Source: Streptomyces pactum (GTDB lineage: Bacteria; Actinomycetota; Actinomycetes; Streptomycetales; Streptomycetaceae). From it: DNA of 64,000 nucleotides. The translations under genes and the position numbers were made by a program. The notes beneath the pieces were generated by a model. The model was not told the origin of the DNA. It saw only the letters and a list, made by a program, of their open reading frames with translations, and did no database searches. Where the stretch lies: the NCBI RefSeq assembly GCF_002005225.1, contig NZ_CP019724.1, forward strand, positions 5,101,501 through 5,165,500. Direction: 5' to 3'. The stretch's first letter is position 1, and each line of letters starts with the position of its first letter. Below, one piece after another: positions 3,594 through 37,896 of the stretch.

Positions 3594-4106
3594 TCACACC
3601 GCGAAGAACGCCGCCGTCAGCAACGCCACGCCCGACCCCGCCATCACCCAGGCCGCCCGCGTCCGCCGCAGGCCGCCCGCCACCACCACCGACGCCAGCA
3701 GCAGCGCACCGCCCAACGGCACCCAGGCGTACAGCACCCCGGCCGGACCCGAACGCACCGCTTCGTCACCGCCGGGCTTCACCACCACGGAGTACGTCCG
3801 CCCCTTCGCCACGGCGACCGAGTCCGCCAGGACGACCCGCTCCCGCGCCTGCGACCCCGCCGACAGCGGCGAGTACGGCCCACTGCACGAACCCCCGCCG
3901 CACCGCGTCACCTCGACCGTGCCCTGCTCCCGCCCCTTGGTCAGCAGCACGTGCTGCGCCGTACCCCAGGACGCCCACACACCGGCGATCAGGATCAGCG
4001 CCGTGACCGTCCCCATCACTGCGACCCGGCCGAGCCACAGCACGGCGCGTGCGGCCTGGCGGGGGCGGGCAGCGGCGGCGGCTGAGGCAGGCATGGCCGG
4101 GATCAT
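3594..4106 (-). CDS. Small membrane protein, unknown function
   Basis: A 170-residue protein that I do not recognise. One hydrophobic segment lies near residues 24-46 (AVMGTVTALILIAGVWASW). An extracytoplasmic-looking stretch of about 70 residues with a Cys pair (TRCGGGSCSG) follows. Two more hydrophobic segments lie near 122-143 and 150-169. The layout resembles DUF3592-type small membrane proteins, but this is only an impression. The ATG at 4106 was chosen; a second ATG in frame at 4094 is possible. It lies downstream of pth in the same direction, with an 80-base gap. Confidence 0.6.
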   Translation of the reverse strand: MIPAMPASAAAAARPRQAARAVLWLGRVAVMGTVTALILIAGVWASWGTAQHVLLTKGREQGTVEVTRCGGGSCSGPYSPLSAGSQARERVVLADSVAVAKGRTYSVVVKPGGDEAVRSGPAGVLYAWVPLGGALLLASVVVAGGLRRTRAAWVMAGSGVALLTAAFFAV

Positions 4107-4186
4107 TGGCCATACCCGCGCGCTCGGTCAACTCACCCGCGCACCATCGGCGGACAAGTCGGGAGTTGTGCGACAGGAGTCGTGCG

Positions 4187-4783
4187 TCAGGAGTTGTACG
4201 TGCTCTGCGCCCGCTCCAGACCCTCGATCACCAGAGCCTCGACCGCGTCCGCCGCCCGGTCCACGAAGTAGTCCAGCTCCTTGCGCTCCGCCGACGAGAA
4301 GTCCCGCAGCACGAAGTCCGCCACCGGCATCCGGCCCGGCGGCCGCCCGATCCCGAACCGCACCCGGTGGTAGTCCGGCCCCAGCGACTTCGTGATCGAC
4401 TTGAGCCCGTTGTGCCCGTTGTCCCCGCCGCCCAGCTTCAGCCGGAGCACGCCGTAGTCGATGTCCAGCTCGTCGTGGACCGCCACGATGTTGCCGACCG
4501 GCACCTTGTAGAAGTCCCTGAGCGCCGTCACCGGCCCGCCCGACACGTTCATGAACGACATCGGTTTCGCCAGGATCACCCGCCGGCCGGCCGGCCCCGG
4601 CGGCCCGATCCGTCCCTCGACCACCTGTGCCTGCGCCTTGCCGTGCCGCTTGAACCGGGCCCCGATCCGCTCCGCCAGCAGATCCGCCACCATGAAACCG
4701 ACGTTGTGCCGGTTCGAGGCGTACTCGGGGCCCGGATTGCCGAGACCGGCCACCAGCCAGGGCGCACCCGCGTCCGTCGTCAC
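4187..4783 (-). CDS. pth: Peptidyl-tRNA hydrolase
   Basis: Releases tRNA from peptidyl-tRNA that has dropped off the ribosome; cytosolic and essential in most bacteria. The 198-residue product has the family length. The N-terminal motif is GLGNPGPEY and the catalytic His is H26 in [20 protein letters not shown] and the catalytic Asp D104 in [10 protein letters not shown] follow. The [11 protein letters not shown] segment completes the signature. The frame stays open further upstream, but GTG at 4783 is the start because gaaggag lies about 7 bases before it and homology begins there. It follows rplY in the same direction, an arrangement conserved in actinomycetes. Confidence 0.96.
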
Positions 4784-4883
4784 GTCCCTGTCTCCTTCGT
4801 GTCCGTCATGCCCGTCCACACATACGCGTCGGCCGCTGCCCCGCACGGGAACAGCGGCCGACGAACGAAGACCGTAGCGAGGA

Positions 4884-5468
4884 TCAGGCCTCGGCGGCCT
4901 CGTCGCCCTCGGCCGAGGCCTCCTCGGCCTGCGCGGCCAGCACCTGCAGGACGACCGTGTCCTCCTCGACGGCCAGCTTGGTGCCGGCCGGGAGCGGGAT
5001 GTCCTTGGCCAGGATGGAGGCACCGGCCTCCAGGCCCTCGACGGAGACGGTGACCGACTCCGGGATGTGCGTGGCCTCGGCCTCGACCGGCAGCGCGTTC
5101 AGGACGTGCTCCAGCAGGTTGCCGCCCGGCGCCAGTTCGCCCTCGGTGTGCACGTAGATCTCGACGCTGACGGTCTCGCCGCGCTGCACGAGCTGCAGGT
5201 CGACGTGCTCCAGGAAGCCCTTGATCGGGTCACGCTGCACGGACTTCGGGATGGCCAGCTCGTTGGTCTTGCCGTCGATGTCCAGCGCGATCAGCACGTT
5301 CGGCGTACGCAGCGCCAGCAGCAGGTCGTGGCCCGGCAGCGTCAGGTGCAGCGGGTCGGAGCCGTGGCCGTACAGAACACCCGGAACCTTGTTGTCACGA
5401 CGGATACGGCGGGCGGCACCCTTGCCGAACTCGCTGCGCGTCGTGGCGGAGATCTTCACCTCGGACAT
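4884..5468 (-). CDS. rplY: 50S ribosomal protein L25/general stress protein Ctc
   Basis: 5S rRNA-binding ribosomal protein of the long (Ctc/TL5) type. The N-terminal L25 domain ([22 protein letters not shown] onward) covers about residues 1-90. The C-terminal TL5 domain covers about 95-180. An acidic, Ala/Glu-rich tail ([13 protein letters not shown]), common in Streptomyces copies, ends the protein. The ATG at 5468 is preferred over GTG 5474 because gaggag sits 5 bases before the ATG, whereas it would touch the GTG. It lies between prs and pth in one leftward block, and a hairpin at 5566-5621 separates it from prs. Confidence 0.95.
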
Positions 5469-5565
5469 GGTCACTCCTCGTAGAGGTAGAAACGGACGTG
5501 GTCACCCGGCCACGAACGGCCTGCTACGAAGAGCGCGTCGATAACGGACCGCCGTACACGAACGC

Positions 5566-5621
5566 GTACGGCCTCCCTCGCCGAGCAACTTCAGCAGTCT
5601 ACTCGGACAGGGAGGCCGTAC
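5566..5621 (-). terminator. Hairpin between prs and rplY
   Basis: A 13-bp perfect stem (gtacggcctccct at 5566-5578 with agggaggccgtac at 5609-5621) encloses a 30-base loop region. It lies directly after the prs stop on the minus strand. It probably terminates or attenuates transcription from prs into rplY. Confidence 0.65.
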
Positions 5622-5664
5622 CCAAAACGATCTGTACGTCCCCGCGGAACGATCCGCAGAACGG

Positions 5665-6639
5665 TTACTGCTCGTCGAACAGGCTCGTCACCGAGCCGTC
5701 CTCGAACACCTCACGCACCGCGCGCGCGATCGTCGGCGCGATCGAGAGCACCGTGATCTTGTCCAGTTCCAGCTCGTTGGGCGTCGGCAGCGTGTCCGTG
5801 AACACGAACTCGCTCACCTTCGAGTTCTTCAGCCGGTCCGCCGCCGGACCCGACAGCACACCGTGCGTCGCCGTCACGATGACGTCCTCCGCACCGTGCG
5901 CGAACAGCGCGTCCGCCGCGGCGCAGATCGTGCCACCGGTGTCGATCATGTCGTCGACCAGGACGCAGATCCGGCCCTGCACGTCACCGACGACCTCGTG
6001 CACCGTGACCTGGTTCGCCACGTCCTTGTCGCGGCGCTTGTGCACGATCGCCAGCGGCGCGCCCAGCCGGTCGCACCAGCGGTCCGCCACCCGCACCCGG
6101 CCGGCGTCCGGGGAGACCACCGTCAGCTTCGAGCGGTCCACCTTCGCACCCACGTAGTCCGCCAGCAGCGGCAGCGCGAAGAGGTGGTCGACGGGCCCGT
6201 CGAAGAAGCCCTGGATCTGGTCCGTGTGCAGGTCCACGGCGAGGATCCGGTCCGCGCCCGCGGTCTTCATCAGGTCCGCGATCAGACGCGCCGAGATCGG
6301 TTCACGTCCCCGGTGCTTCTTGTCCTGCCGCGCGTAACCGTAGAACGGCACGATGACGGTGATGGAGCGGGCCGACGCGCGCTTCAGCGCGTCGATCATG
6401 ATCAGTTGCTCCATGACCCACTTGTTGATCGGGGCCGTGTGGCTCTGGATCAGGAAACAGTCCGCACCTCGCGCCGACTCCTGATAACGCACGTAGATCT
6501 CGCCGTTGGCGAAGTCGAAGGCCTTCGTCGGGACGACCCCGACACCCAACTGCTGGGCGACCGCCTCGGCAAGCTCGGGGTGGGCGCGGCCGGAGAAGAA
6601 CATCATCTTCTTCTCGCCGGTCGTCTTGATCCCGGTCAC
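5665..6639 (-). CDS. prs: Ribose-phosphate pyrophosphokinase
   Basis: Makes PRPP from ribose 5-phosphate and ATP, feeding nucleotide, His, Trp and NAD synthesis; cytosolic. The 324 residues match the class I length. Visible motifs are the flexible-loop segment YGYARQDKKHRGREPIS (about 100-116), the ribose-phosphate site VVSPDAG (174-180) and the PRPP-binding loop VLVDDMIDTGGT (226-237). GTG at 6639 was chosen because aggag lies 8 bases before it. Its neighbour upstream is glmU, an order conserved across Gram-positive bacteria. Confidence 0.97.
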   Translation of the reverse strand: MTGIKTTGEKKMMFFSGRAHPELAEAVAQQLGVGVVPTKAFDFANGEIYVRYQESARGADCFLIQSHTAPINKWVMEQLIMIDALKRASARSITVIVPFYGYARQDKKHRGREPISARLIADLMKTAGADRILAVDLHTDQIQGFFDGPVDHLFALPLLADYVGAKVDRSKLTVVSPDAGRVRVADRWCDRLGAPLAIVHKRRDKDVANQVTVHEVVGDVQGRICVLVDDMIDTGGTICAAADALFAHGAEDVIVTATHGVLSGPAADRLKNSKVSEFVFTDTLPTPNELELDKITVLSIAPTIARAVREVFEDGSVTSLFDEQ

Positions 6640-6771
6640 AGCACTTTCTCCTCAGAGGTTCGCAGCTGAGCGTCACGGGCGCTCTTCCGGCTGGGTGCGG
6701 GAGGCGTCTCAGCTATGGGGTGCGGATGTGCACTTATCACGGTACGCCGTGTTCGGCGCGCCGGTTTCCGG

Positions 6772-8220
6772 TCAGCCTTCGGTGCCGGCCTCCCGGGACA
6801 CCGCCTCGGCCGCCTTCGCCGCCGCGCTCCCCGGACGCTTGCGAGCCACCCAACCCTCGATATTCCGTTGCTGGCCACGGGCCACCGCCAGGGAACCGGG
6901 CGGCACATCCTTGGTGATCACCGAGCCGGCGGCGGTGTAGGCACCGTCCCCGACCGTGACAGGGGCCACAAACATGTTGTCCGAACCCGTCTTGCAGTGC
7001 GAGCCGACGGTCGTGTGGTGCTTGCTCTCCCCGTCGTAGTTCACGAACACGCTCGCGGCACCGATGTTGGTGTACTCGCCGATCGTCGCGTCGCCCACGT
7101 AGGAGAGGTGCGGGACCTTGGTGCCCTCGCCGATCGAGGAGTTCTTCGTCTCGACGTACGTGCCGATCTTGGCCTTCGTGCCGAGCCGGGTGCCGGGCCG
7201 CAGATACGCGTACGGGCCCACCGTCGCCTCCGGACCGACCACGGCGTCGAGGGAGACCGTGTTGTCCACGCGCGCGCCGGCCCCGACGCGGGTGTCCGTG
7301 AGGCGGGAGTTCGGCCCGACCTCGGCCCCCTCGGCAAGGTGCGTGGAGCCGTGCAACTGCGTACCCGGGTGGACGACGACGTCCTGCTCGAAGGTCACCG
7401 TCACGTCGACCCACGTCGTCGCCGGGTCGACGACCGTCACGCCGGCCAGCATGGCCCGCGTGAGCAGCCGGTCGTTGAGGGTCCGGCGGGCCTCGGCGAG
7501 CTGCACGCGGTTGTTGATCCCCGCGATCTCCCGGTGGTCACCGGCCACGGACGCGCCGACCCGGTGGCCGGCCTCGCGGAGGATGCCGAGGACGTCGGTG
7601 AGGTACTCCTCGCCCTGGCTGTTGTCCGTCCGCACCTTGCCGAGCGCGTCGGCGAGGAGCTGCCCGTCGAAGGCGAAGACACCCGAGTTGATCTCGCGGA
7701 TCGCCCGCTGCGACTCGGAGGCGTCCTTGTGCTCGACGATCGCGGTGACGGCACCGGAGGACCCGTCCCGCACGATCCGGCCGTACCCCGTCGCGTCCGG
7801 GACCTCGGCGGTCAGCACGGTCACGGCGTTTCCGTCGGCGGTGTGGGTGGCGGCGAGGGCCCGCAGCGTCTCGCCGGTGAGGAGGGGAGTGTCGCCGCAG
7901 ACCACGACCACGGTCCCGTCCACGGCACCGCCCAGCGCCTCCAGGCCCATCCGGACCGCGTGCCCGGTGCCGTTCTGCTGCTCCTGTACGGCGGTGCGTA
8001 CGTCGGGGGCGACCTCGGCGAGGTGCGCGGTGACCTTCTCGCGGGCGTGCCCGACGACGGCGACCAGGTTCTCGGGGTCCAGCTCACCGGCGGCGGCGAG
8101 CACGTGCCCGACGAGGGACCGGCCGCACAGCTCGTGCAGGACCTTGGGTGTGGCCGACTTCATACGGGTGCCCTCACCCGCTGCGAGAACGACGACGGCT
8201 GCCGGGCGAATGGCGCTCAC
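6772..8220 (-). CDS. glmU: Bifunctional N-acetylglucosamine-1-phosphate uridyltransferase/glucosamine-1-phosphate acetyltransferase
   Basis: Makes UDP-GlcNAc for peptidoglycan in two steps. The N-terminal half is a pyrophosphorylase with [15 protein letters not shown] near residues 12-26. The C-terminal half is a left-handed beta-helix acetyltransferase with hexapeptide repeats and the conserved [23 protein letters not shown] region. Length is 482 residues, as usual. GTG at 8220 is the start, with gaaggg just upstream, although the frame stays open to 8292. A tRNA-Gln gene lies 112 bases upstream and prs follows downstream. Confidence 0.97.
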
Positions 8221-25690: not shown

Positions 25691-29224
<3,534 letters not shown>

Positions 29225-29651: not shown

Positions 29652-30251
29652 ATGAGGCGGCACAGCAGGATCCGTACCGGATGGGCCGCGGGCGCGGCCC
29701 TCGCACTGGCCCTGGTCACCGGGTGCGAGGGACTCGACGGCGAAGAGGGCGCCTCGTCCCCGGGCGGCGGCGCCAAGGCACCGGCCGCGGGGCAGGCCGT
29801 CAGCCCGCTGAGCAACCCCGACGGTACCGGCCCCGGCCTCGCCCCGGTCAGGGGCGACGGCCCCGAGGCGACGGCCCGCAAACTCATCGACGGCCTCGAG
29901 ACCAAGGGGCGCGGTCCCAGGACGGGATACGACCGCGACGAGTTCGGCTACGCCTGGATGGACACGGCAGACGGGGTACCGCTGGCGAGGAACGGTTGTG
30001 ACACGCGGAACGACCTGCTGAAGCTGCATGGGCGGGACGTCCGGTTCCGTACCGGCTCCGACTGTGTGGTCGTGTCGATGGACCTGTACGACCCGTACAC
30101 CGGCAAGGACATCGCCTGGAAGAAGGCGAAGGCCGCCGAGGTGCAGATAGACCACGTGGTGCCGTTGTCGTACGCCTGGCAGATGGGCTCGTCGCGGTGG
30201 GCGGAGAGCAAGCGCGAACAACTGGCGAACGACCTTATGTTGGCGGTGTAG
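29652..30251 (+). pseudogene. 5' part of an HNH nuclease lipoprotein gene interrupted by a transposon
   Basis: The frame encodes a lipoprotein signal (GWAAGAALALALVTGC, lipobox Cys about 25) and most of a GmrSD/DUF1524-like HNH nuclease domain (AEVQIDHVVPLSYAWQMG). After ...QLANDL it runs into unrelated DNA and stops at TAG 30249-30251, inside the left end of the element. The missing C-terminus (NDPLNLLPV...REAMLRQCGG) lies at 37699-37896. Joining the two halves at the shared aacgac restores the frame without change. A truncated 199-residue product may still be made, but it lacks the rest of the HNH motif. Confidence 0.9.
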
Positions 30252-30827
30252 ATGTCTCACGGTGATGTGTCTCAGGGGCGGGATGGCCGCGTGTCCAGGT
30301 GGTGTCTCACGAGCGGCGTGCTGCATGTCGGCGCTGCACTGGCTGCCGGGGCCGTCCTGACAGGCTGCACGGGAGGCGGACTCTCCGACGAGAGTGGTTC
30401 ATCAGGCGGCGGCTCGTCAGCGTCCGCCAAGTACGGAGCCAGCCCCTTGGCCGACCCCGACGGAACGAAGCCCGGGCTGGCCCCGATCTCGTCCGAGACG
30501 GACGAGGCGACAGCGCGTGAGCTGATCACCAAGCTGTCAACCAAGGGGCGAGGGCCGAAGACGGGCTATGACCGCGACGAGTTCGGCTACGCGTGGATGG
30601 ACACGGCGGACGGTGTGCCGCTGGCGCGGAACGGTTGTGACACCCGGAACGACTTGCTGAAACTCCATGGGCGCAACGTCGAGCTCCGTGCCGGTTCGGA
30701 CTGTGTCGTCGTCTCGATGGACCTGTACGACCCGTACACCGGCAAGGACATCGCCTGGAAGAAGGCGAAGGCCATCGAGGTGCAGATAGACCACGTGGTG
30801 CCGTTGTCGTACGCCTGGCAGATGGGC
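30075..30827. repeat. 114-bp near-identical direct repeat in the two HNH genes
   Basis: Bases 30075-30188 of the interrupted host gene and 30714-30827 of the element-borne copy match at 112 of 114 positions by eye; the only differences are gcc/atc in one codon. Surrounding sequence is similar but less so. Recombination between them would fuse the host 5' end to the element copy. Confidence 0.9.
30235..30260. repeat. Left terminal inverted repeat of the element
   Basis: Starts ttatgttggcgg and ends tgtctcac. It pairs with 37673-37699 read in reverse. Two more tgtctca blocks follow at 30268-30274 and 30303-30309, possibly accessory recombinase sites. The stop codon of the truncated host gene and the ATG of the cargo gene both lie inside it. 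Confidence 0.8.
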
Positions 30828-31064
30828 GCCGCCCGCTGGGGCAAGGGGAAGCGGCAACGGCTGGCCAATGACGTGCTGAATCTCCTGCCGGTCTCGGGCT
30901 CGACGAACTCCGCCAAGCGGGACTCGGGCCCGGCGTCGTGGCTGCCGCCCAACAAGGCGGTCCGGTGCTCGTACGCGGTGCGGTTCGCGCAGGTGGCAGC
31001 CAAGTACGAACTGCCCGTGACGTCGGCGGACAAGACCATGATGCTGCAGCAGTGCAGCGCTTGA
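30252..31064 (+). CDS. Secreted HNH nuclease lipoprotein, element-borne intact copy
   Basis: A 270-residue homologue of the interrupted host gene. The signal region is VLHVGAALAAGAVLTGC with a lipobox Cys at about 39. A Ser/Gly linker is followed by a GmrSD-C-terminal/DUF1524-like HNH domain with IDHVVPL (D180, H181) and LANDVLNLLPV. SAKRDSGPASWLPP and four further Cys, probably disulfide-bonded, complete it. It is likely an exported, membrane-anchored nuclease. ATG 30252 follows the TAG of the truncated gene directly, suggesting reinitiation. GTG 30291 would give a more normal signal peptide and has aggggcgg upstream. Confidence 0.85.
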   Translation: MSHGDVSQGRDGRVSRWCLTSGVLHVGAALAAGAVLTGCTGGGLSDESGSSGGGSSASAKYGASPLADPDGTKPGLAPISSETDEATARELITKLSTKGRGPKTGYDRDEFGYAWMDTADGVPLARNGCDTRNDLLKLHGRNVELRAGSDCVVVSMDLYDPYTGKDIAWKKAKAIEVQIDHVVPLSYAWQMGAARWGKGKRQRLANDVLNLLPVSGSTNSAKRDSGPASWLPPNKAVRCSYAVRFAQVAAKYELPVTSADKTMMLQQCSA

Positions 31065-31168
31065 GGTTCCAGAGGTTCGGCAGCTCTGCAGGCCGCTGCT
31101 GTCAGGCTTGGGCACCCTCGTTCTCGTCTCCGCAGGCATCCTTTGGACCACACCACCAGGAGGAACCA

Positions 31169-31558
31169 GTGTCGTACCCGCAACCGCTCACCGCTGAGGA
31201 GAAACTCGCCGACGCGAAGAAGCATCTGAGCCTCCCGCGTATCGTCGTGATCTGCGGTTCCACCCGCTTCATGACCGAGATGACCGAGGCCGATCTGCGG
31301 GAGACCAAAGCCGGAAAGATTGTCGTCAAGCCGGGCTGTGACATGAAGTCGCCGCACGAACTTTGGTCCGATCCTGTTGAGGCCGAGGCGCTGAAGGTTC
31401 GACTCGACGATCTGCACCGGGCGAAGATCCGGCTCGCTGATGAGGTGCTCGTAGTCGGCGACTACATCGGAGACAGCACCCGAGCCGAAATCGCCTACGC
31501 CCGGTCGCTGGGCAAGCCCGTGCGGTTCACACACCCCGAAGTCGACCCCGACGCCTGA
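31169..31558 (+). CDS. Nucleoside 2-deoxyribosyltransferase-like protein
   Basis: A 129-residue cytosolic protein. IVVICGSTRFM near residue 25 and ADEVLVVGDYIGDSTRAEIAYARSLGKPV at the C-terminus fit the Rossmann-like nucleoside deoxyribosyltransferase/DUF4406 group, whose members act on nucleotides or sense them. GTG 31169 has ggagg 5 bases upstream. It is the second cargo gene of the element, 104 bases after the HNH gene and convergent with the recombinase operon. Whether it is an enzyme is unproven. Confidence 0.75.
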   Translation: MSYPQPLTAEEKLADAKKHLSLPRIVVICGSTRFMTEMTEADLRETKAGKIVVKPGCDMKSPHELWSDPVEAEALKVRLDDLHRAKIRLADEVLVVGDYIGDSTRAEIAYARSLGKPVRFTHPEVDPDA

Positions 31559-31633
31559 CCGCTCACCCCGGGCTGGATGCGTGGCAGCGCTACCTTCAGC
31601 AGCCGGAGAGCGCGACAGGACGGCGTGAGTGAG

Positions 31634-32164
31634 TCAGGGCTGCACTGGTGATGAGCCCGTGGCCGTCCTGGCACCTTTGAGCTGCTTGACCACCCCTGCC
31701 TGCTTCCCGGCAAGCTGAGCGTGAAGGCGACGGGTGTCCGCTTCCAACTCGGCGTTCCTCAGGGCGAGGATCTGGATCTGGTTCGCGTACGCCGCGACGG
31801 TGGCACGCAACTCCCGGATCTCGGCGCCCTTCTCCCGGCGGAGTTCCCGCTCGGACTGTTTCAGGCGCGCGACTTCCTGCCTGAGCTCGTCGGACTCAGG
31901 ACGCCTGGCCTCGGGCGAGCTGAGAATCCCCTTGATGACTGCCGCGACGGGAGAGCGGTAGTACGAGGCTCGGGAGACGCCTGCCTCGGCGGCGATGTTC
32001 ACTGCCGAGGTGCGGCCGTCGGTGATCTCGGGGCGGCCGAGCATGAGCTGCTCGAAGGCGCGCATGATCTGCTGGTCGATGTCGGTCAGGCCGGTGTTTT
32101 CCCGGGCCAGGCGGGCGAAGGCGGTGCGGACGGCTTGCAGGGTCTCGTCCATGGAGCCGGTCAT
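31634..32164 (-). CDS. TnpC-like/DUF6262 HTH and coiled-coil protein of the transposon
   Basis: A 176-residue protein, last gene of the recombinase operon. Residues about 45-75 form an HTH (TSAVNIAAEAGVSRASYYR). A long coiled coil follows (ELRQEVARLKQSERELRREK to AELEADTRRLHAQL). Small proteins of this type accompany the recombinases in Tn554-like elements, where TnpC influences the frequency and orientation of transposition. ATG 32164 lies 2 bases after the stop of the upstream recombinase. The role is inferred from position and shape. Confidence 0.75.
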   Translation of the reverse strand: MTGSMDETLQAVRTAFARLARENTGLTDIDQQIMRAFEQLMLGRPEITDGRTSAVNIAAEAGVSRASYYRSPVAAVIKGILSSPEARRPESDELRQEVARLKQSERELRREKGAEIRELRATVAAYANQIQILALRNAELEADTRRLHAQLAGKQAGVVKQLKGARTATGSSPVQP

Positions 32165-32166
32165 CG

Positions 32167-34326
32167 TCAGGAGTCCTCGTGGTCGATCTCGGCGATCAGG
32201 TGGGTGAGCGTGGCCAGGTGTTCCGCGATGGCGAGCTGCTGGAGTCGCGGGAGGTCGGCGGCCTCGCCGAGTTCGGCCCGGGCCATGTCGTGTGCTCGTT
32301 CCAGGCGGGGCAGGTGGACGGCGGAGCGGCGTGAGTTGGGGCAGTTCATGCACATGTCGAGCATGGGGATGGGGCGTCCCAGTGGCTTGGTCCGCTTGCG
32401 GCACACGGCCGTCTCCGCCTGGTAGAAGCAGTCGTTCAGCACGCCGGGATGCAGGGTCTTCGTCAGGTGGTGCAGCAGCGTTCTCAGCCGGGAGGGGCTG
32501 GCCACCACACCCGGCAGGTCGCCGAGTTCGCTGCGGATGCGGTCGAACTCGACCTCGATGCGCCGGGCGGCACCGCCCGCTGAGGGGCCGCCGTCGTTCC
32601 AGTCGTGGTAGAGGTCCTCGACGTAATCGAGCTTGGCCACGGCCTCCTCGGCCGCAACCTCGTCGGCGAAGCCGGAGGCGGACGTTCCCGCGTAGCCCTC
32701 GAACATGGTGATCGCTGCGTGCTTGTACTGGCGGGCGCCCGCGACCACGCCGAAGGGCTGGTGGGCGATGTGCCAGGCGAGGGTCCGGCGGAACTGCCGG
32801 GTGTCGAAGGCCCATGGAAGAGCTGTGGACTCTGCCACCGCTGCCTCTACCGCCGTGTCGTTCGGAACCGCGTCGTCGGTGATCGGGTCGGCACCGGGCG
32901 GTGGGGCTGCCGCGATCGTGGGTACGTAGAGCCCCGCCGGTGTGCTGAACAGCTCGTTGAGATGGTCACGGAAAGCCCGGATGCGGCGCGGCATGTTGCT
33001 GAGCAGCACGTACCCGTTGCGCCCACCGCCGTCGTAGCCGAAGAGGTGGCCGGGGTCGTCGTTGATCTCGCGGAGGACGGCGACGGCCCGGTGGACGACA
33101 TCCAGCACGACCCATTCGGCTTCCTCCCCGCTCAGGTCGCGCCCCTTGCCCTTGTAGACCCGGCCCCGGAGTTTGTACCGGGTCCGTCCGTCGGCTCCGC
33201 GCTCGGTGAGGGCGCAGTCCCGGCCCAGCTCACGCACCTCCACATCCCGCATCCCCGACAGGTAGGCGATGACGATCCAGCAGGCCGTGCGCAAGAAGGA
33301 CAGCTCGTTGGCCAGGGTGAAGGGGCTGAGCCTCGGCCGCCAGGGGCCGGCCGAGCCGGACCATGGCGACATCGGTGTGTCGAGCCCGCCCTCCTCGTAG
33401 CCGATCTCCTTCCCGGCCTCGACCACGAGCGCAAGCACTTGTGACGTCTTGGCGACACCGGCGAGGAGGGAGACGAGTCTGTGGTTGGGCACCTGTGGCA
33501 CGCCGTCGACGACGGCGGCGCCGGGCACGGTGTGGGCCGTCCCGAGCGGTACTGCGGGGATGCCCCGCCCGGCCTCTCGCCGTTCGGCGATGAAGGACAG
33601 CACACGTTCCCGTGCCTGGCCCTGGACCAGACAGCGGCTGTCGCGTGCCGCTTCGAGCGCGTCGATCTCTTTCTGGGCGGCGAGGATGTCCCCACTCGCC
33701 GTCTCCACGTAGAAGATTGCCGCTCGCAGCAGGGGGGCGAGGACCTCCTCAGGGATGCGGGGCGTGGTGTTCTCGCCCTTTACGCGCTGGAGTCCGACGA
33801 CACCGTAGGCGCTGCGGCCGTTCCACGGCAGGATGCCCAGCCTGTCCTCGGACAGGAACGGTCCGTGGGCCGACAAGTGCTTCAGGAAGGTCACGTTGCG
33901 AACCGCGGTGTGCGGGCTGCTCTTCCACCTCTTCAGCGCGGCGTCCAGGTGGGTGTGTTCCACGTCGGGCAGTCGTGCGGCGCCCACCCCCTGCAGATCC
34001 TCCATGACGACGACGAAGGTGCGCAGCTCGGTGGCTGCCGTCGTGGCCTTGAGCGGCCCCAGGCCCAGCGAACCCCGGGTCAGGCGTGAGGTGATGTACT
34101 CCTTCGCCGCGCGTCGCGTCGCGGGGTCGGCGATCTGCGTGAAGTCGAGCCGCCACGTCCGCCACGTGCGGGGGAGCACGCACCGTAGGTCCCAGATGTC
34201 CTCAACCAGGCGTGGGCCACGGCTCGGCAGCCCGACCGTGAGGCGCTTGGGGAGCACGAACTCCGCAAAGTCCCCGGACGGTGTCAGGTCCTGCTGCTTC
34301 GCCCTGGAGTGGGGGACGGCAGTCAC
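32167..34326 (-). CDS. Tyrosine recombinase, third of the trio
   Basis: A 719-residue site-specific recombinase. The box I Arg is in AYLSGMRDVEVREL near residue 358. A box II-like segment TRQFRRTLAWHIA lies near 514. A box III His and the candidate nucleophilic Tyr lie in YKHAAITMFEGYAG near 535. After the catalytic part a Cys cluster follows (DCFYQAETAVC, then MCMNCPNSRR at about 632-665), probably a zinc site. GTG 34326 overlaps the stop of the preceding recombinase (GTGA). The product is much longer than a simple integrase, and the N-terminal third is unassigned. Confidence 0.85.
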   Translation of the reverse strand: MTAVPHSRAKQQDLTPSGDFAEFVLPKRLTVGLPSRGPRLVEDIWDLRCVLPRTWRTWRLDFTQIADPATRRAAKEYITSRLTRGSLGLGPLKATTAATELRTFVVVMEDLQGVGAARLPDVEHTHLDAALKRWKSSPHTAVRNVTFLKHLSAHGPFLSEDRLGILPWNGRSAYGVVGLQRVKGENTTPRIPEEVLAPLLRAAIFYVETASGDILAAQKEIDALEAARDSRCLVQGQARERVLSFIAERREAGRGIPAVPLGTAHTVPGAAVVDGVPQVPNHRLVSLLAGVAKTSQVLALVVEAGKEIGYEEGGLDTPMSPWSGSAGPWRPRLSPFTLANELSFLRTACWIVIAYLSGMRDVEVRELGRDCALTERGADGRTRYKLRGRVYKGKGRDLSGEEAEWVVLDVVHRAVAVLREINDDPGHLFGYDGGGRNGYVLLSNMPRRIRAFRDHLNELFSTPAGLYVPTIAAAPPPGADPITDDAVPNDTAVEAAVAESTALPWAFDTRQFRRTLAWHIAHQPFGVVAGARQYKHAAITMFEGYAGTSASGFADEVAAEEAVAKLDYVEDLYHDWNDGGPSAGGAARRIEVEFDRIRSELGDLPGVVASPSRLRTLLHHLTKTLHPGVLNDCFYQAETAVCRKRTKPLGRPIPMLDMCMNCPNSRRSAVHLPRLERAHDMARAELGEAADLPRLQQLAIAEHLATLTHLIAEIDHEDS

Positions 34327-36131
34327 GAGATGACCTCCAGAAAGGACGAAGGCAGCAGCAGGCGATCGCCATCGGCCTCGGCGATGGTCTGAGCCGTGGC
34401 GATCTGTCGCGCACTGAAGCGGGCACGGACACCGTGGACGATGCGATCCCATGCGAGACCGAACCGTGCGTCCCACTCGGCGGTGGGGTATTCCACGCGC
34501 TGCCGCTCCAGGAAGTCCAGGAAGGACAGCAGACTCGGCAGGTGACGGCTGGTGAACACCGCGTTCGGGCACTCCAGACAGCCCCAGGCCGGGACCGGGC
34601 AGGCGGCTCCCGGCTTGCGGGCGAACGGGGAGGCGAAGAAGTCGCGGCAGGAGGCAAGCCACACGTCCTGCTCACCGGAGAGCGCCGACTCGATCTCCTG
34701 CGCGCTCAGCGCGGCCTCACCGTCGTCGAGTCGACCGCCGGCGTCCGAGAGCACCATCGGCGGGGCCAGAGCCGCGCCGAGCGCCTGTTCAAGACCTGCC
34801 TCCACCGCCTGCTCGTGCGTCTCCTTGTGGGCATCGATATCGGCGTAGTGCTTCGCCGCGACCGGCTGGGTGTGACCGGATGCGAAGTCCTCCAGTACCC
34901 CGCCGACCCGCAGGTACTGCCGGGACTTGACGGTCTTGCGTACTCGGCGCAGGTCAAGGGTGACGCGTTCGCCGTTGCTGTCGGTGAGGCGGTCGAGCCC
35001 CCGCCTGGACATCCACTCCCGCGTCGCGCCCGACCACGGGGTCAGCCCGTCAAAGGGTGCGCGTGCTTGTCCGTGGCTGCTGACATCGCACCAGAGTGCG
35101 TCGGTGCCGACCAGGTCACGTGTTCTCTTCGTCAGACGCAACGCCAGCCGGATCACGCCGCCGGGAAAGCGCAGCGAGCCGCCGTCGGAGACCCTGATCG
35201 CCTTGTGCCTGGAGCCCGGGGCGCGCTTCTTGACGTAGGAGACGCTGACGAAGCCGCGTGCCGGGCTGACCAGGCAGTCTGAGCGCAACTGCCGGAGGCT
35301 CTCGGGTTCCATACCCGTCTGGCAGGCCAGCAGGAGGAGCAAGGGCACCAGGTCGCGCGCGGTGAGGTGGAGACGGCCGTTGAGCTCCGGTCTGCCGCCC
35401 AAGGGGCGCAGGATCTTGTACGAGACGTCGTCGGCGGTCAACGGCCCATGGTGGGCGATGTACCAGAGGACGTTCTCCACTCGGTCCCAGCCGTGCTGAC
35501 GTGGGTCATGGCCGGTGGCTGCCAGCTTCTCGCCCTCCAGGATCCGGTCGCGGATGCGGGCGATGTCGTCCCGGGCGGCACTCTCCAGCGCGTCTAGCAC
35601 CGGGAACGGATAGGCGTCGAGCGGTTTCGTCGCCCGGTGGGCTGAGGCCGATGTGAACCCCAGCCGTGCATGAAAGGTGGCGTCGAAGGCGTCGGGGTGC
35701 GCCTCGTGCACCAGCTTCAGCAGCCGCACGAGGTACGTCATGGTGAGGTACGGCTCCTTGCTCCGCTCCCCGTATTGGGTGATCAGCTTCTGCTCGAACG
35801 CGTCCAGGAGGTCGGGGGCCAGATCACCGAGGGGCAGATCAGCGGCGGCCGCAGGCAATGCCGCGGCGGTGAACTCGACGAACTCACGGATGCGCCTGAC
35901 GACGTAGCGGACGCCGTTGCGGTCACGCATGGTGCCGGGGCTGCTGATGACATCGGCGAGGGCACCGGCCAGGGCGCGAGTGAGACGCGGACAGGGAAGC
36001 TCCGACAGATCGATGTGCTCGGGAGTTCCGTCCAGGTCCACGGCGAAGACCACGGGGCCGATCGACGGTACCGGATCCGCCAGGGCAGGGGCGTCGACCG
36101 CGGCGGGGAAGCGGACGCGGCGCGGGCTCAC
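34323..36131 (-). CDS. Tyrosine recombinase, second of the trio (TnpB-like)
   Basis: A 602-residue recombinase-fold protein. The box I equivalent reads TGMEPESLRQLRSDC near residue 277, so the usual GMR Arg is replaced. Box II is DLRRVRKT near 392, without the usual HxLR His. Box III and the Tyr are in GHTQPVAAKHYADI near 423. A C-terminal Cys motif (ACPVPAWGCLECPN) near 515 resembles that of the third recombinase. The altered residues suggest a structural or helper role, or a divergent active site. GTG 36131 overlaps the stop of the first recombinase. Confidence 0.82.
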   Translation of the reverse strand: MSPRRVRFPAAVDAPALADPVPSIGPVVFAVDLDGTPEHIDLSELPCPRLTRALAGALADVISSPGTMRDRNGVRYVVRRIREFVEFTAAALPAAAADLPLGDLAPDLLDAFEQKLITQYGERSKEPYLTMTYLVRLLKLVHEAHPDAFDATFHARLGFTSASAHRATKPLDAYPFPVLDALESAARDDIARIRDRILEGEKLAATGHDPRQHGWDRVENVLWYIAHHGPLTADDVSYKILRPLGGRPELNGRLHLTARDLVPLLLLLACQTGMEPESLRQLRSDCLVSPARGFVSVSYVKKRAPGSRHKAIRVSDGGSLRFPGGVIRLALRLTKRTRDLVGTDALWCDVSSHGQARAPFDGLTPWSGATREWMSRRGLDRLTDSNGERVTLDLRRVRKTVKSRQYLRVGGVLEDFASGHTQPVAAKHYADIDAHKETHEQAVEAGLEQALGAALAPPMVLSDAGGRLDDGEAALSAQEIESALSGEQDVWLASCRDFFASPFARKPGAACPVPAWGCLECPNAVFTSRHLPSLLSFLDFLERQRVEYPTAEWDARFGLAWDRIVHGVRARFSARQIATAQTIAEADGDRLLLPSSFLEVIS

Positions 36132-37621
36132 TGGTACTCCTCCGTTTCCGGGCGTGCCTGCTCGAAGGCTGCGGCCTGTTCGTCCCAGTCGTCGAGAGCC
36201 GCAAGAACGATCTCCTGGGCCTCGTCCAGCACGTCCAGGTAGGTATAGACCGTCGCCTCGTGACGGTGGCCCAACAGCAGCTGGAGCCTGCGCAGAGGAT
36301 TGCCGATGAGCAGGCGTTTCACCTCGGCGTGCGTGAACCGTCGGTCCTCCCGCATACCGAGCGCCCGGACGGTCTGCCGCAGCAGAAGCCCCAGCATGTG
36401 GACGGCGAAGGAGTGCCGCAGGGTGTGCGGGTGGACATCGAAGTCGAGGCCAAGAGCTGAGCACCGCTCGTTCGCCCGCCGGAAAACCGACTGCCAGGTG
36501 CTGGCGCGGAGCGGCAGCCCGTTCTCCCCAAGCCACAGCCACAGGGGCCCGCTCGCGCGGCCGTGGCTGTCGACCTGCAGGAGCCGAGCCCGGTCCGCCG
36601 TGCCGATCCGCGAGTACGACCAACTGGTACCGGACTCGAGCGCCAAGGCGTGCCGGTTCGCCCGGCGTACCGGAAGCCGACCCGTGCACGCCTCGTACAC
36701 CCCCTCGGCGCGCCGCCGCTGGACGAGTTCGTCCCGCTCGATACCGACGTAGTGGTGCAGGTCGCGGGCGACCCGGGGGCGGACATACACCGTCCGTGCC
36801 CTGTTGCGCTTGGCCAGGGCGGCCGAGACGGTGATGTCGCCGAGCACACGTCTTCCGGTGACCGGCGGCAGTTCCGCCGTCAGCAGGCTCGTGGCTTCGC
36901 CCAGGCGCATGCCGGTGCAGATCAGCAAGTCGGCGAAGAGAGCGTTGCGTTCGCCGTTGCGTCCCCGCCAGGCCGGATCGGGGGAGCCGTCCGGCAGCAG
37001 CCCTCGCAGCCCGACGTCCCGCCAGAGCATGAAGTCCTCGTGCGACAGGAACCCGATCGGCTGCAGGGGCACCTCGGGCTCAGCGGCGGCGTTGACCCGT
37101 ACCTGCTTCGGCCCCTGCGGCGACACCACGGTCTTGTCGACGTACCGGAACGGCTCGGCAGGTAGCAGTTCCTCGTACAGCGACCACTGAACCCACTTGT
37201 CGAGCGCGGCGACGGAGCGGTTCCACGTCGCTACCGAGACCTTGCCCGGGCCGTTGCCATGCAGTCGCACGGCCTTGTACGCGCGCAGGTCGGAGCCGTC
37301 CGTGTCCCAGATGAGCTTCCCGTCCCGGGACTCGTGGAGGAAACGGCAATAGAGCATGACGTCGGTGCTGTAGGCGATCCGGCTGTTCGCCGACCGCACT
37401 CCCCAGTTCTCCAGGTCGCGCAGGAAACGGTTGAGGTGGAGGTCGTAAGTGCCGTCGGGGCCGAGGATGAAGGGTCTGCCGTCGTCGGCCCCGACGCGCC
37501 GCAGCACTGCCTCGGCGTCGAAGGGGAGTTCATCTGCTGCGGAGGGCCCGGCTGTGGTCCTGTGTAGCAGCACCGTCGCTTCCGTACCGGCGCCGGCCTC
37601 GCCCGATCCCGTCGTGCTCAA
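36128..37621 (-). CDS. Tyrosine recombinase, first of the trio (TnpA-like)
   Basis: A 497-residue integrase with the most canonical active site of the three. The box I Arg is in ICTGMRLGEATSLL near 236. HPHTLRHSFAVHML lies near 398. LLGHRHEATVYTYLDV with the His and nucleophilic Tyr lies near 450-460. The N-terminal part contains a SAM-like core-binding domain (SRIAYSTDVMLYCRFLHES). TTG 37621 was chosen because ggagg lies 5 bases upstream; GTG starts further up overlap the terminal repeats. It is the first gene of the leftward operon, reading inward from the right end. Confidence 0.9.
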   Translation of the reverse strand: MSTTGSGEAGAGTEATVLLHRTTAGPSAADELPFDAEAVLRRVGADDGRPFILGPDGTYDLHLNRFLRDLENWGVRSANSRIAYSTDVMLYCRFLHESRDGKLIWDTDGSDLRAYKAVRLHGNGPGKVSVATWNRSVAALDKWVQWSLYEELLPAEPFRYVDKTVVSPQGPKQVRVNAAAEPEVPLQPIGFLSHEDFMLWRDVGLRGLLPDGSPDPAWRGRNGERNALFADLLICTGMRLGEATSLLTAELPPVTGRRVLGDITVSAALAKRNRARTVYVRPRVARDLHHYVGIERDELVQRRRAEGVYEACTGRLPVRRANRHALALESGTSWSYSRIGTADRARLLQVDSHGRASGPLWLWLGENGLPLRASTWQSVFRRANERCSALGLDFDVHPHTLRHSFAVHMLGLLLRQTVRALGMREDRRFTHAEVKRLLIGNPLRRLQLLLGHRHEATVYTYLDVLDEAQEIVLAALDDWDEQAAAFEQARPETEEYQ

Positions 37622-37635
37622 GTCACCCTCCCCGT

Positions 37636-37661
37636 GTGAGACAAGCTGTACGCGCACATAA
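37636..37661. repeat. Inner copy of the element end repeat (right side)
   Basis: On the minus strand it begins ttatgtgcgcgtac and ends tgtctcac, the same outline and length (26 bases) as the left terminal repeat. It lies 11 bases inside the outer right repeat and just upstream of the first recombinase gene. Confidence 0.75.
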
Positions 37662-37672
37662 CGGGATGGGTG

Positions 37673-37699
37673 GTGAGACAGTTACGGGTGCCGACATAA
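37673..37699. repeat. Right terminal inverted repeat of the element
   Basis: On the minus strand it reads ttatgtcggcacc... and ends tgtctcac. It matches the left end in its ttatgt, ggc, gta and tgtctcac blocks and differs in between. Its last base overlaps the aacgac hexamer that resumes the host gene. Confidence 0.8.
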
Positions 37700-37896
37700 A
37701 CGACCCGCTGAACCTGCTGCCCGTCCAGGGCCGCGCCAACTCCGCCAAGGGGGACTCCGGGCCGGCCTCCTGGCTGCCGCCCGCCAAGCCGGTGCGGTGC
37801 GCGTACGCCGTCCGCTTCGCGCAGGTCGCCGTCAAGTACGAACTGGCGGTGACCGCGCCGGACCGGGAGGCGATGCTGCGGCAGTGCGGCGGCTGA
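37699..37896 (+). pseudogene. 3' part of the interrupted HNH nuclease gene
   Basis: In the frame of the 29652 gene it reads NDPLNLLPVQGRANSAKGDSGPASWLPP and ends REAMLRQCGG at a TGA. It aligns residue by residue with the C-terminus of the element-borne copy. It contains the later HNH residues and two Cys, so the split separates the catalytic motif. It has no start of its own. Confidence 0.9.

Follow-up and report, generated by a model that had tools for sequence, protein, structure and literature searches.

Conserved genes represent dependable landing sites for mobile elements, yet their breakage harms the host, and the usual ways round this trade-off are the use of safe sites beside genes or the restoration of one gene end. 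In the stretch of Streptomyces pactum DNA analysed here (64,000 nt, hereafter the window), a 7,465-bp element interrupts an HNH-nuclease gene and contains an intact homologue of that same gene, which raises the question of whether a transposon can bring along a replacement for the gene that it breaks. Several kinds of site-specific element in Streptomyces and Rhodococcus bring a complete relative of the gene that they enter, and the carried copy perhaps keeps a working version of that gene for the host.

The element spans positions 30235-37699 of the window, with its exact ends determined from a 6-bp core and terminal repeats. The core, ACGACC, is present in a left (30229-30234) and a right (37700-37705) copy; the original prediction had placed a shared aacgac at the joint, and a repeat is indeed found there, but the true core is offset by one base. 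Imperfect inverted repeats make up the ends (TTATGTTGGC...TGTCTCAC and GTGAGACA...GTGCCGACATAA), the left one at 30235-30260 on the plus strand and the right at 37673-37699 on the minus strand. The broken host gene lies on the plus strand downstream of a gene that we take to be mfd (25691-29224), and consists of a 5' part (29652-30234), whose frame as it stands continues to a stop at 30249-30251, and a 3' part (37706-37896). When the element is taken out together with one core, an open host frame results whose alignment to the HNH family crosses the joint, in line with the proposal that the gene would rejoin in frame. The homologue that had been predicted inside the left end, in the same direction, is an intact plus-strand gene of 270 aa (30252-31064) with Pfam matches to GmrSD_C (57.5 bits) and HNH_4. 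It starts 17 bases inside the left element end, its ATG (30252) directly follows the TAG stop of the host frame, and an in-frame GTG is present at 30291. The joined host gene aligns at 74% over 236 residues with P0002 and at 80% over 205 residues with its own cargo. The element is present in a single copy in its genome, where TnpA has just one further match, at 26% identity.

Four genes are read on the minus strand from the right end of the element, and the HNH gene and a small gene of 129 aa without a Pfam match (31169-31558) on the plus strand. The first of the four encodes TnpA, a tyrosine recombinase of 509 aa (36128-37657; Pfam Phage_integrase). It is followed by a middle recombinase-like protein (34323-36131), in which the first catalytic Arg is replaced by Glu in all eight sequences aligned, and by a large recombinase-like protein (32167-34329) that retains R, H and Y where they are expected, the catalytic positions used for both proteins being the ones that we presume. 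The last gene (31634-32164) encodes a small protein in the place of TnpC/GinD/Srap, with no Pfam match at E 0.001 and, in particular, none to DUF6262.

The arrangement was then sought in other genomes. A TnpA scan of a genome collection gave nine loci. Among 392 Streptomyces genomes, the window TnpA had matches at E<=1e-90 in seven and the distant TnpA of genome G235 at 1e-60 in nine, while the TnpA of G277 gave 39 matches at 1e-60 in 31 genomes; 37 of these matches were taken further. In the resulting screen of 52 loci, an ORF on the inner side of tnpA was matched to the gene fragment just outside the tnpA end; 16 loci matched and 36 did not. One match (L105) was rejected as a sixteenth case, as it lies on the minus strand and resembles a pair of what, by eye, we take to be transposase copies. 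The remaining 15 of the 52 loci have a split host gene and an intact homologue inside the element, which is more than chance. Thirteen of these elements come from the 392-genome sample, and two (L068 and L069) from the genome-collection scan; L008 covers a shorter part of the locus also represented by L068, and two further pairs (L024 and L108, L012 and L013) each correspond to a single locus.

The 15 elements comprise several recombinase groups and two target genes, the HNH nuclease and an RNase_T-type exonuclease. The window group (the window, L007, L009, L022 and L068; TnpA identity at least 83%) occupies HNH site 2, McG3 (L069; 63%) HNH site 1, and a different, second trio (L055 and L072-L076; 79-100% to each other's query) again HNH site 1, whereas the exonuclease gene is split in L025, L070 and L071 (at least 94% to P0007). 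All five window-group elements sit at the same codon, as the original prediction of a fixed insertion codon implied, and all five have both an HNH host and an HNH cargo; a sixth copy, in G172, is decayed. The self-target element at site 1 in L055 differs from the window element.

Further features were observed at individual loci. The host gene of L055 (G277) is the closest to that of the window (86% in the tree columns), and is struck at site 1 with site 2 whole. The window-type element of L068 (ISL-96) contains or adjoins a second, distant recombinase trio (24-30% identity), for a total of 14.5 kb. McG3 (L010/L069) has large extra cargo that, by eye, presumably includes a DNA methylase, a HerA-like ATPase and a NurA-like protein, and the exonuclease-carrying element of L025 (G235) also has an MFS transporter gene (Pfam MFS_1). 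In G370, one Tn554-like TnpA is present in three copies of equal identity on contigs C9 and C11 (L079, L106 and L107), and that relative therefore seems active.

The 15 Streptomyces elements follow common rules. In each, the 6-bp core is equal at both ends and its sequence differs by locus (ACGACC, ACGACA, ACGATG; CACGCA, CACGCG, CTCGCG, CCCGCG; GCAACG; CGCCTT, GGCCTT, GGCGTT). Every host gene, read in the frame of homology, is likewise restored in frame upon joining, and its alignment crosses the joint. The carried gene runs in the direction of the host gene, inward from the tnpA-distal end, in all but McG3, where the copy is inverted, 41% identical to the host gene and without stop-start coupling. 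In the same 14 elements, the broken host frame stops at or beside the carried start codon: as TAG|ATG in four, as TAG|GTG in L068, with the stop 7-10 nt before the presumed start in six, and as a TGATG overlap in three. The overlap lies at +118, +85 and +118 and is preserved although the lengths differ by 33 nt; in L068, the GTG that abuts the host stop opens only 32 codons, and the HNH frame begins later. This recurrent arrangement suggests that translation of the carried gene is coupled to that of the truncated host frame.

The carriage of a copy does not extend to the whole recombinase family. The expectation that other copies of the trio would each sit in an HNH gene and carry one holds for the window group but fails for relatives at 59-64% TnpA identity, which insert elsewhere and have no detected copy, with the exception of McG3. 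Indeed, L011 and L057 lie in genes that we recognize as yraN, which is presumably nuclease-like, and an ABC-transporter gene, respectively, and these host genes rejoin in frame with no carried copy, so that a universal rule for the family was rejected. The split-gene screen gave no match for L012 and L108, whose left end was not found, for L112-L116, or for the plasmid relatives L117-L119 (59-62%; 3 of 215 records examined). It detected no target copy in 31 relatives of the second trio at less than 50% identity, taken together irrespective of whether they lie in a gene. A class-wide search matched 5 of 394 genomes, including the known G067; five of the six new matches were screened, three of them on short contigs, and none was positive.

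Other loci appear to represent later stages. In G172 (L029 and L056), the recombinase genes of the decayed element match in part only and the carried HNH gene is still open; the right-hand host piece was sought in this genome and not found. In G085 (L109) and G273 (L110), a host 5' fragment stops at site 1 with the left end of the second trio, and an HNH gene comes next, with no match at either locus to any of the recombinase queries used. In 60-nt steps, the first 480 nt of the L109 gene show identities of 0.73-0.98 with the L075 cargo and of 0.32-0.78 with the joined L068 host gene; over the last 240 nt, identity to this host gene is 0.97-1.00. The L109 gene is a hybrid of cargo and host gene, as would arise if the copy recombined with the host fragment and the element was lost, and is termed here a replacement scar; it is the one clear case, L110 having been less closely analysed. 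At L111 (G256; around 4028-7104), the presumed mfd has one intact HNH gene beside it; window-type recombinase matches then extend as far as the end of the contig, and the locus contains no host fragment. This is perhaps another hybrid.

A similar situation is also present on Rhodococcus plasmids. TnpA relatives were found in 215 plasmid records with P0003 and in 1,316 with P0008, and three relatives of the former and four of the latter (Rhodococcus, hand-picked by rank and annotation) were examined; a target copy is present in all four P0008 relatives. In three of them (L120-L122; TnpA 55%, near-identical elements), the gene split by the trio is an HNH gene, entered at site 1, and the cargo includes an HNH gene as well. 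A second, different trio with its own HNH gene splits the same host gene downstream in L120 (NZ_CP017304.1) and L122 (NZ_AP026692.1), where the removal of both elements gives one continuous host alignment of 155 and 215 residues, respectively. The cores differ between the two ends in all five of these elements, the ends of the second trios having been set by eye. A third pair of integrase genes lies beside the two HNH-carrying trios of L120. In the fourth relative (L123), the trio splits a serine recombinase gene. The inner copy is inverted, with identities of 81% and 60% to the two host pieces; once joined, the host gene can be aligned over 322 residues, and the core TGGCGA is present at both sides.

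The sequences of the carried genes bear on what the copies do. Identity between cargo and broken host gene is 68-80% in four elements (the window, L022, L068 and L055) and 41-54% in the other 11, so that equal function is uncertain, and least certain where identity is lowest. In the window, the 5' part of the host gene (29652-30234) and the carried gene (30252-31064) share a 60-nt identical run and stretches at 97% amid diverged DNA, a pattern as after gene conversion. In a 45-row tree, which leaves out L032 (where the trimming motif is absent) and the McG3 cargo, the cargo label changes five times as against 10.8 upon shuffling, with none of 500 shuffles as low. The cargoes of the window group fall into a cluster that also takes in one intact gene (L030), and seven of the 12 HNH host genes form a distant clade. 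The clustering of cargoes and their divergence from the hosts therefore indicate that the allele travels with the element. The dN/dS values of the cargo are 0.15-0.40 in the window group, 0.15-0.32 in the second trio and 0.10-0.25 for the exonuclease, with 0.185-0.228 for TnpA; by this measure, the carried copies are under purifying selection.

These data make it unlikely that the copy was passively captured, with an ancestral imprecise movement or recombination taking up a gene of the target family that has since ridden along at no benefit to the element. The constant position of the copy at one element end, like a captured flank, fits such an origin, and so does the sequence exchange between host gene and cargo to which the identical run and the 97% stretches of the window point. 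Against this, the copy is under purifying selection, recurs in unlike recombinase groups and with three target genes, retains the stop-start arrangement in 14 of 15 elements, and belongs to a lineage that differs from that of the present host gene. It is quite improbable that the carried nucleases and recombinases serve another use, such as exclusion, competition or help in transposition, with their likeness to the target as a side effect. The HNH nuclease, the RNase_T exonuclease and the serine recombinase all act on DNA, as such a use would imply; the cargo, however, matches the exact gene that is broken in 15 of 15 elements, and L011 lies in a presumably nuclease-like gene without carrying a copy of it. 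Two HNH-carrying elements in one host gene (L120 and L122) also mean that exclusion, if any, is incomplete. The staphylococcal case discussed below, moreover, involves a YolD-like gene (PMC12486829). That a host tandem duplication or an assembly error was mistaken for cargo is scarcely credible, and duplication was rejected: many genomes do have multi-copy HNH genes, but the copy lies inside the terminal repeats, the search for an intact tandem pair among relatives found none at loci free of elements and scars (of the 30 best HNH loci, 19 have a single gene, and the 11 with a second piece all have an element or scar), and the arrangement is seen in the one-contig genomes G000 and G272.

The window element is thus quite probably a Tn554/SE-type transposon with a site-specific tyrosine recombinase, which lands in a conserved protein gene and carries a replacement allele of it. 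The element is inserted at a set codon of the conserved gene, with a 6-bp core and an in-frame empty site. The carried copy would be transcribed from the promoter of the broken gene and translated through coupling with the truncated frame of the host gene; selection against insertion would be weak as gene function survives; and recombination between the copy and the host fragment, as the one hybrid gene (L109) suggests, may later remove the element so that a replaced allele stays behind. Replacement is supported by the 15 split-host elements with their equal cores, in-frame joints and stop-start link, by the dN/dS values and the clustering of the cargo, and also by the still open cargo of G172, the hybrid of L109 and the presence of exonuclease and serine recombinase targets. 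It is weakened by the persistence of L011 and L057 without a copy, by the inverted copies of McG3 and L123 and by the short GTG frame of L068. In addition, all of the 392 Streptomyces genomes have HNH-family genes, many of them more than one, and rescue may therefore not be needed; given this and the low identity of 11 of the 15 copies to the gene they interrupt, the original idea, although largely upheld, goes too far in stating that insertion costs the host nothing.

We lean, with some reserve, towards a wider class of recurrent, self-complementing and gene-replacing transposons, whose constant cargo would be the replacement allele of the target, wired by stop-start coupling, and which would be stackable, leave a replaced or hybrid gene behind and spread alleles through a genus. 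With similar reserve, the targets of this class would include the HNH nuclease, the RNase_T exonuclease, the serine recombinase and, in S. aureus, a YolD-like gene. A whole diverged replacement would be a further way round the trade-off between dependable sites and damage, and through it transposons would exchange one allele of a conserved gene for another. Some truncated genes with an intact relative next downstream might be read in the same way, and the idea is open to direct test by way of the stop-start coupling and the distribution over the 392 genomes.

In comparison with known systems, the window element resembles SE, as described in the portions available to us, in having a 6-bp unit at the ends and, in outline, in the order of recombinase, non-catalytic recombinase-like protein, large recombinase and small protein. 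Indeed, the SE order of intA, tfp without catalytic residues, intB and srap is found in the window element in both gene order and residues, at the catalytic positions that we presume. In the same portions, SE are elements of Gammaproteobacteria whose 6-bp footprint derives from the donor, whereas both cores agree in the window element. As for Tn554, its operon of tnpA, tnpB and TnpC/DUF6262 is present in the L055 trio (Phage_integrase TnpB, DUF6262 TnpC) and only in part in the window element, which has an extra recombinase-like gene and the small protein without a DUF6262 match; its donor-derived core, with ends that differ, is seen in none of the 15 Streptomyces elements, while the ends do differ in L120-L122 (5/5). 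GInts, as excerpted, also combine three integrases with a small TnpC-like protein, site specificity and cargo, but are described with imperfect repeats and an intergenic or gene-end location, in a comparison made by description (PMC5385486). The L055 and L072-L076 trios fit the actinobacterial Tn554-like elements, which in the excerpt available have a small and a long recombinase and a TnpC relative (PMC3414803). The consulted parts of the SE, GInt (PMC5385486) and actinobacterial Tn554-like (PMC3414803) descriptions make no mention of a carried target gene. Islands in tRNA genes are reported to restore the split gene by replacing the displaced end of an RNA gene (PMC4383910), whereas the elements described here carry a whole diverged protein gene.

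The original prediction knew of no described element that carries its own target gene; searches of open full-text papers gave one precedent for a carried target-like gene (PMC12486829). Tn552-II of Staphylococcus aureus, reported in 2025, is a Tn554-like tnpABC element with tgl, a homologue of the gene it breaks, and rescue by tgl is a proposal of its authors (PMC12486829). Like the Streptomyces elements, it carries a full-length homologue of the broken gene. It is a single element with a YolD-like target and a 7-bp brought-in att, reported without a comparative test (PMC12486829), whereas in the Streptomyces elements the two cores are equal, the targets encode nucleases, and a stop-start arrangement links the carried gene to the host frame. 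Collectively, the window element belongs with the Tn554/SE-like transposons as a variant that carries its own target; Staphylococcus provides a published precedent, and the evidence assembled here is much broader.
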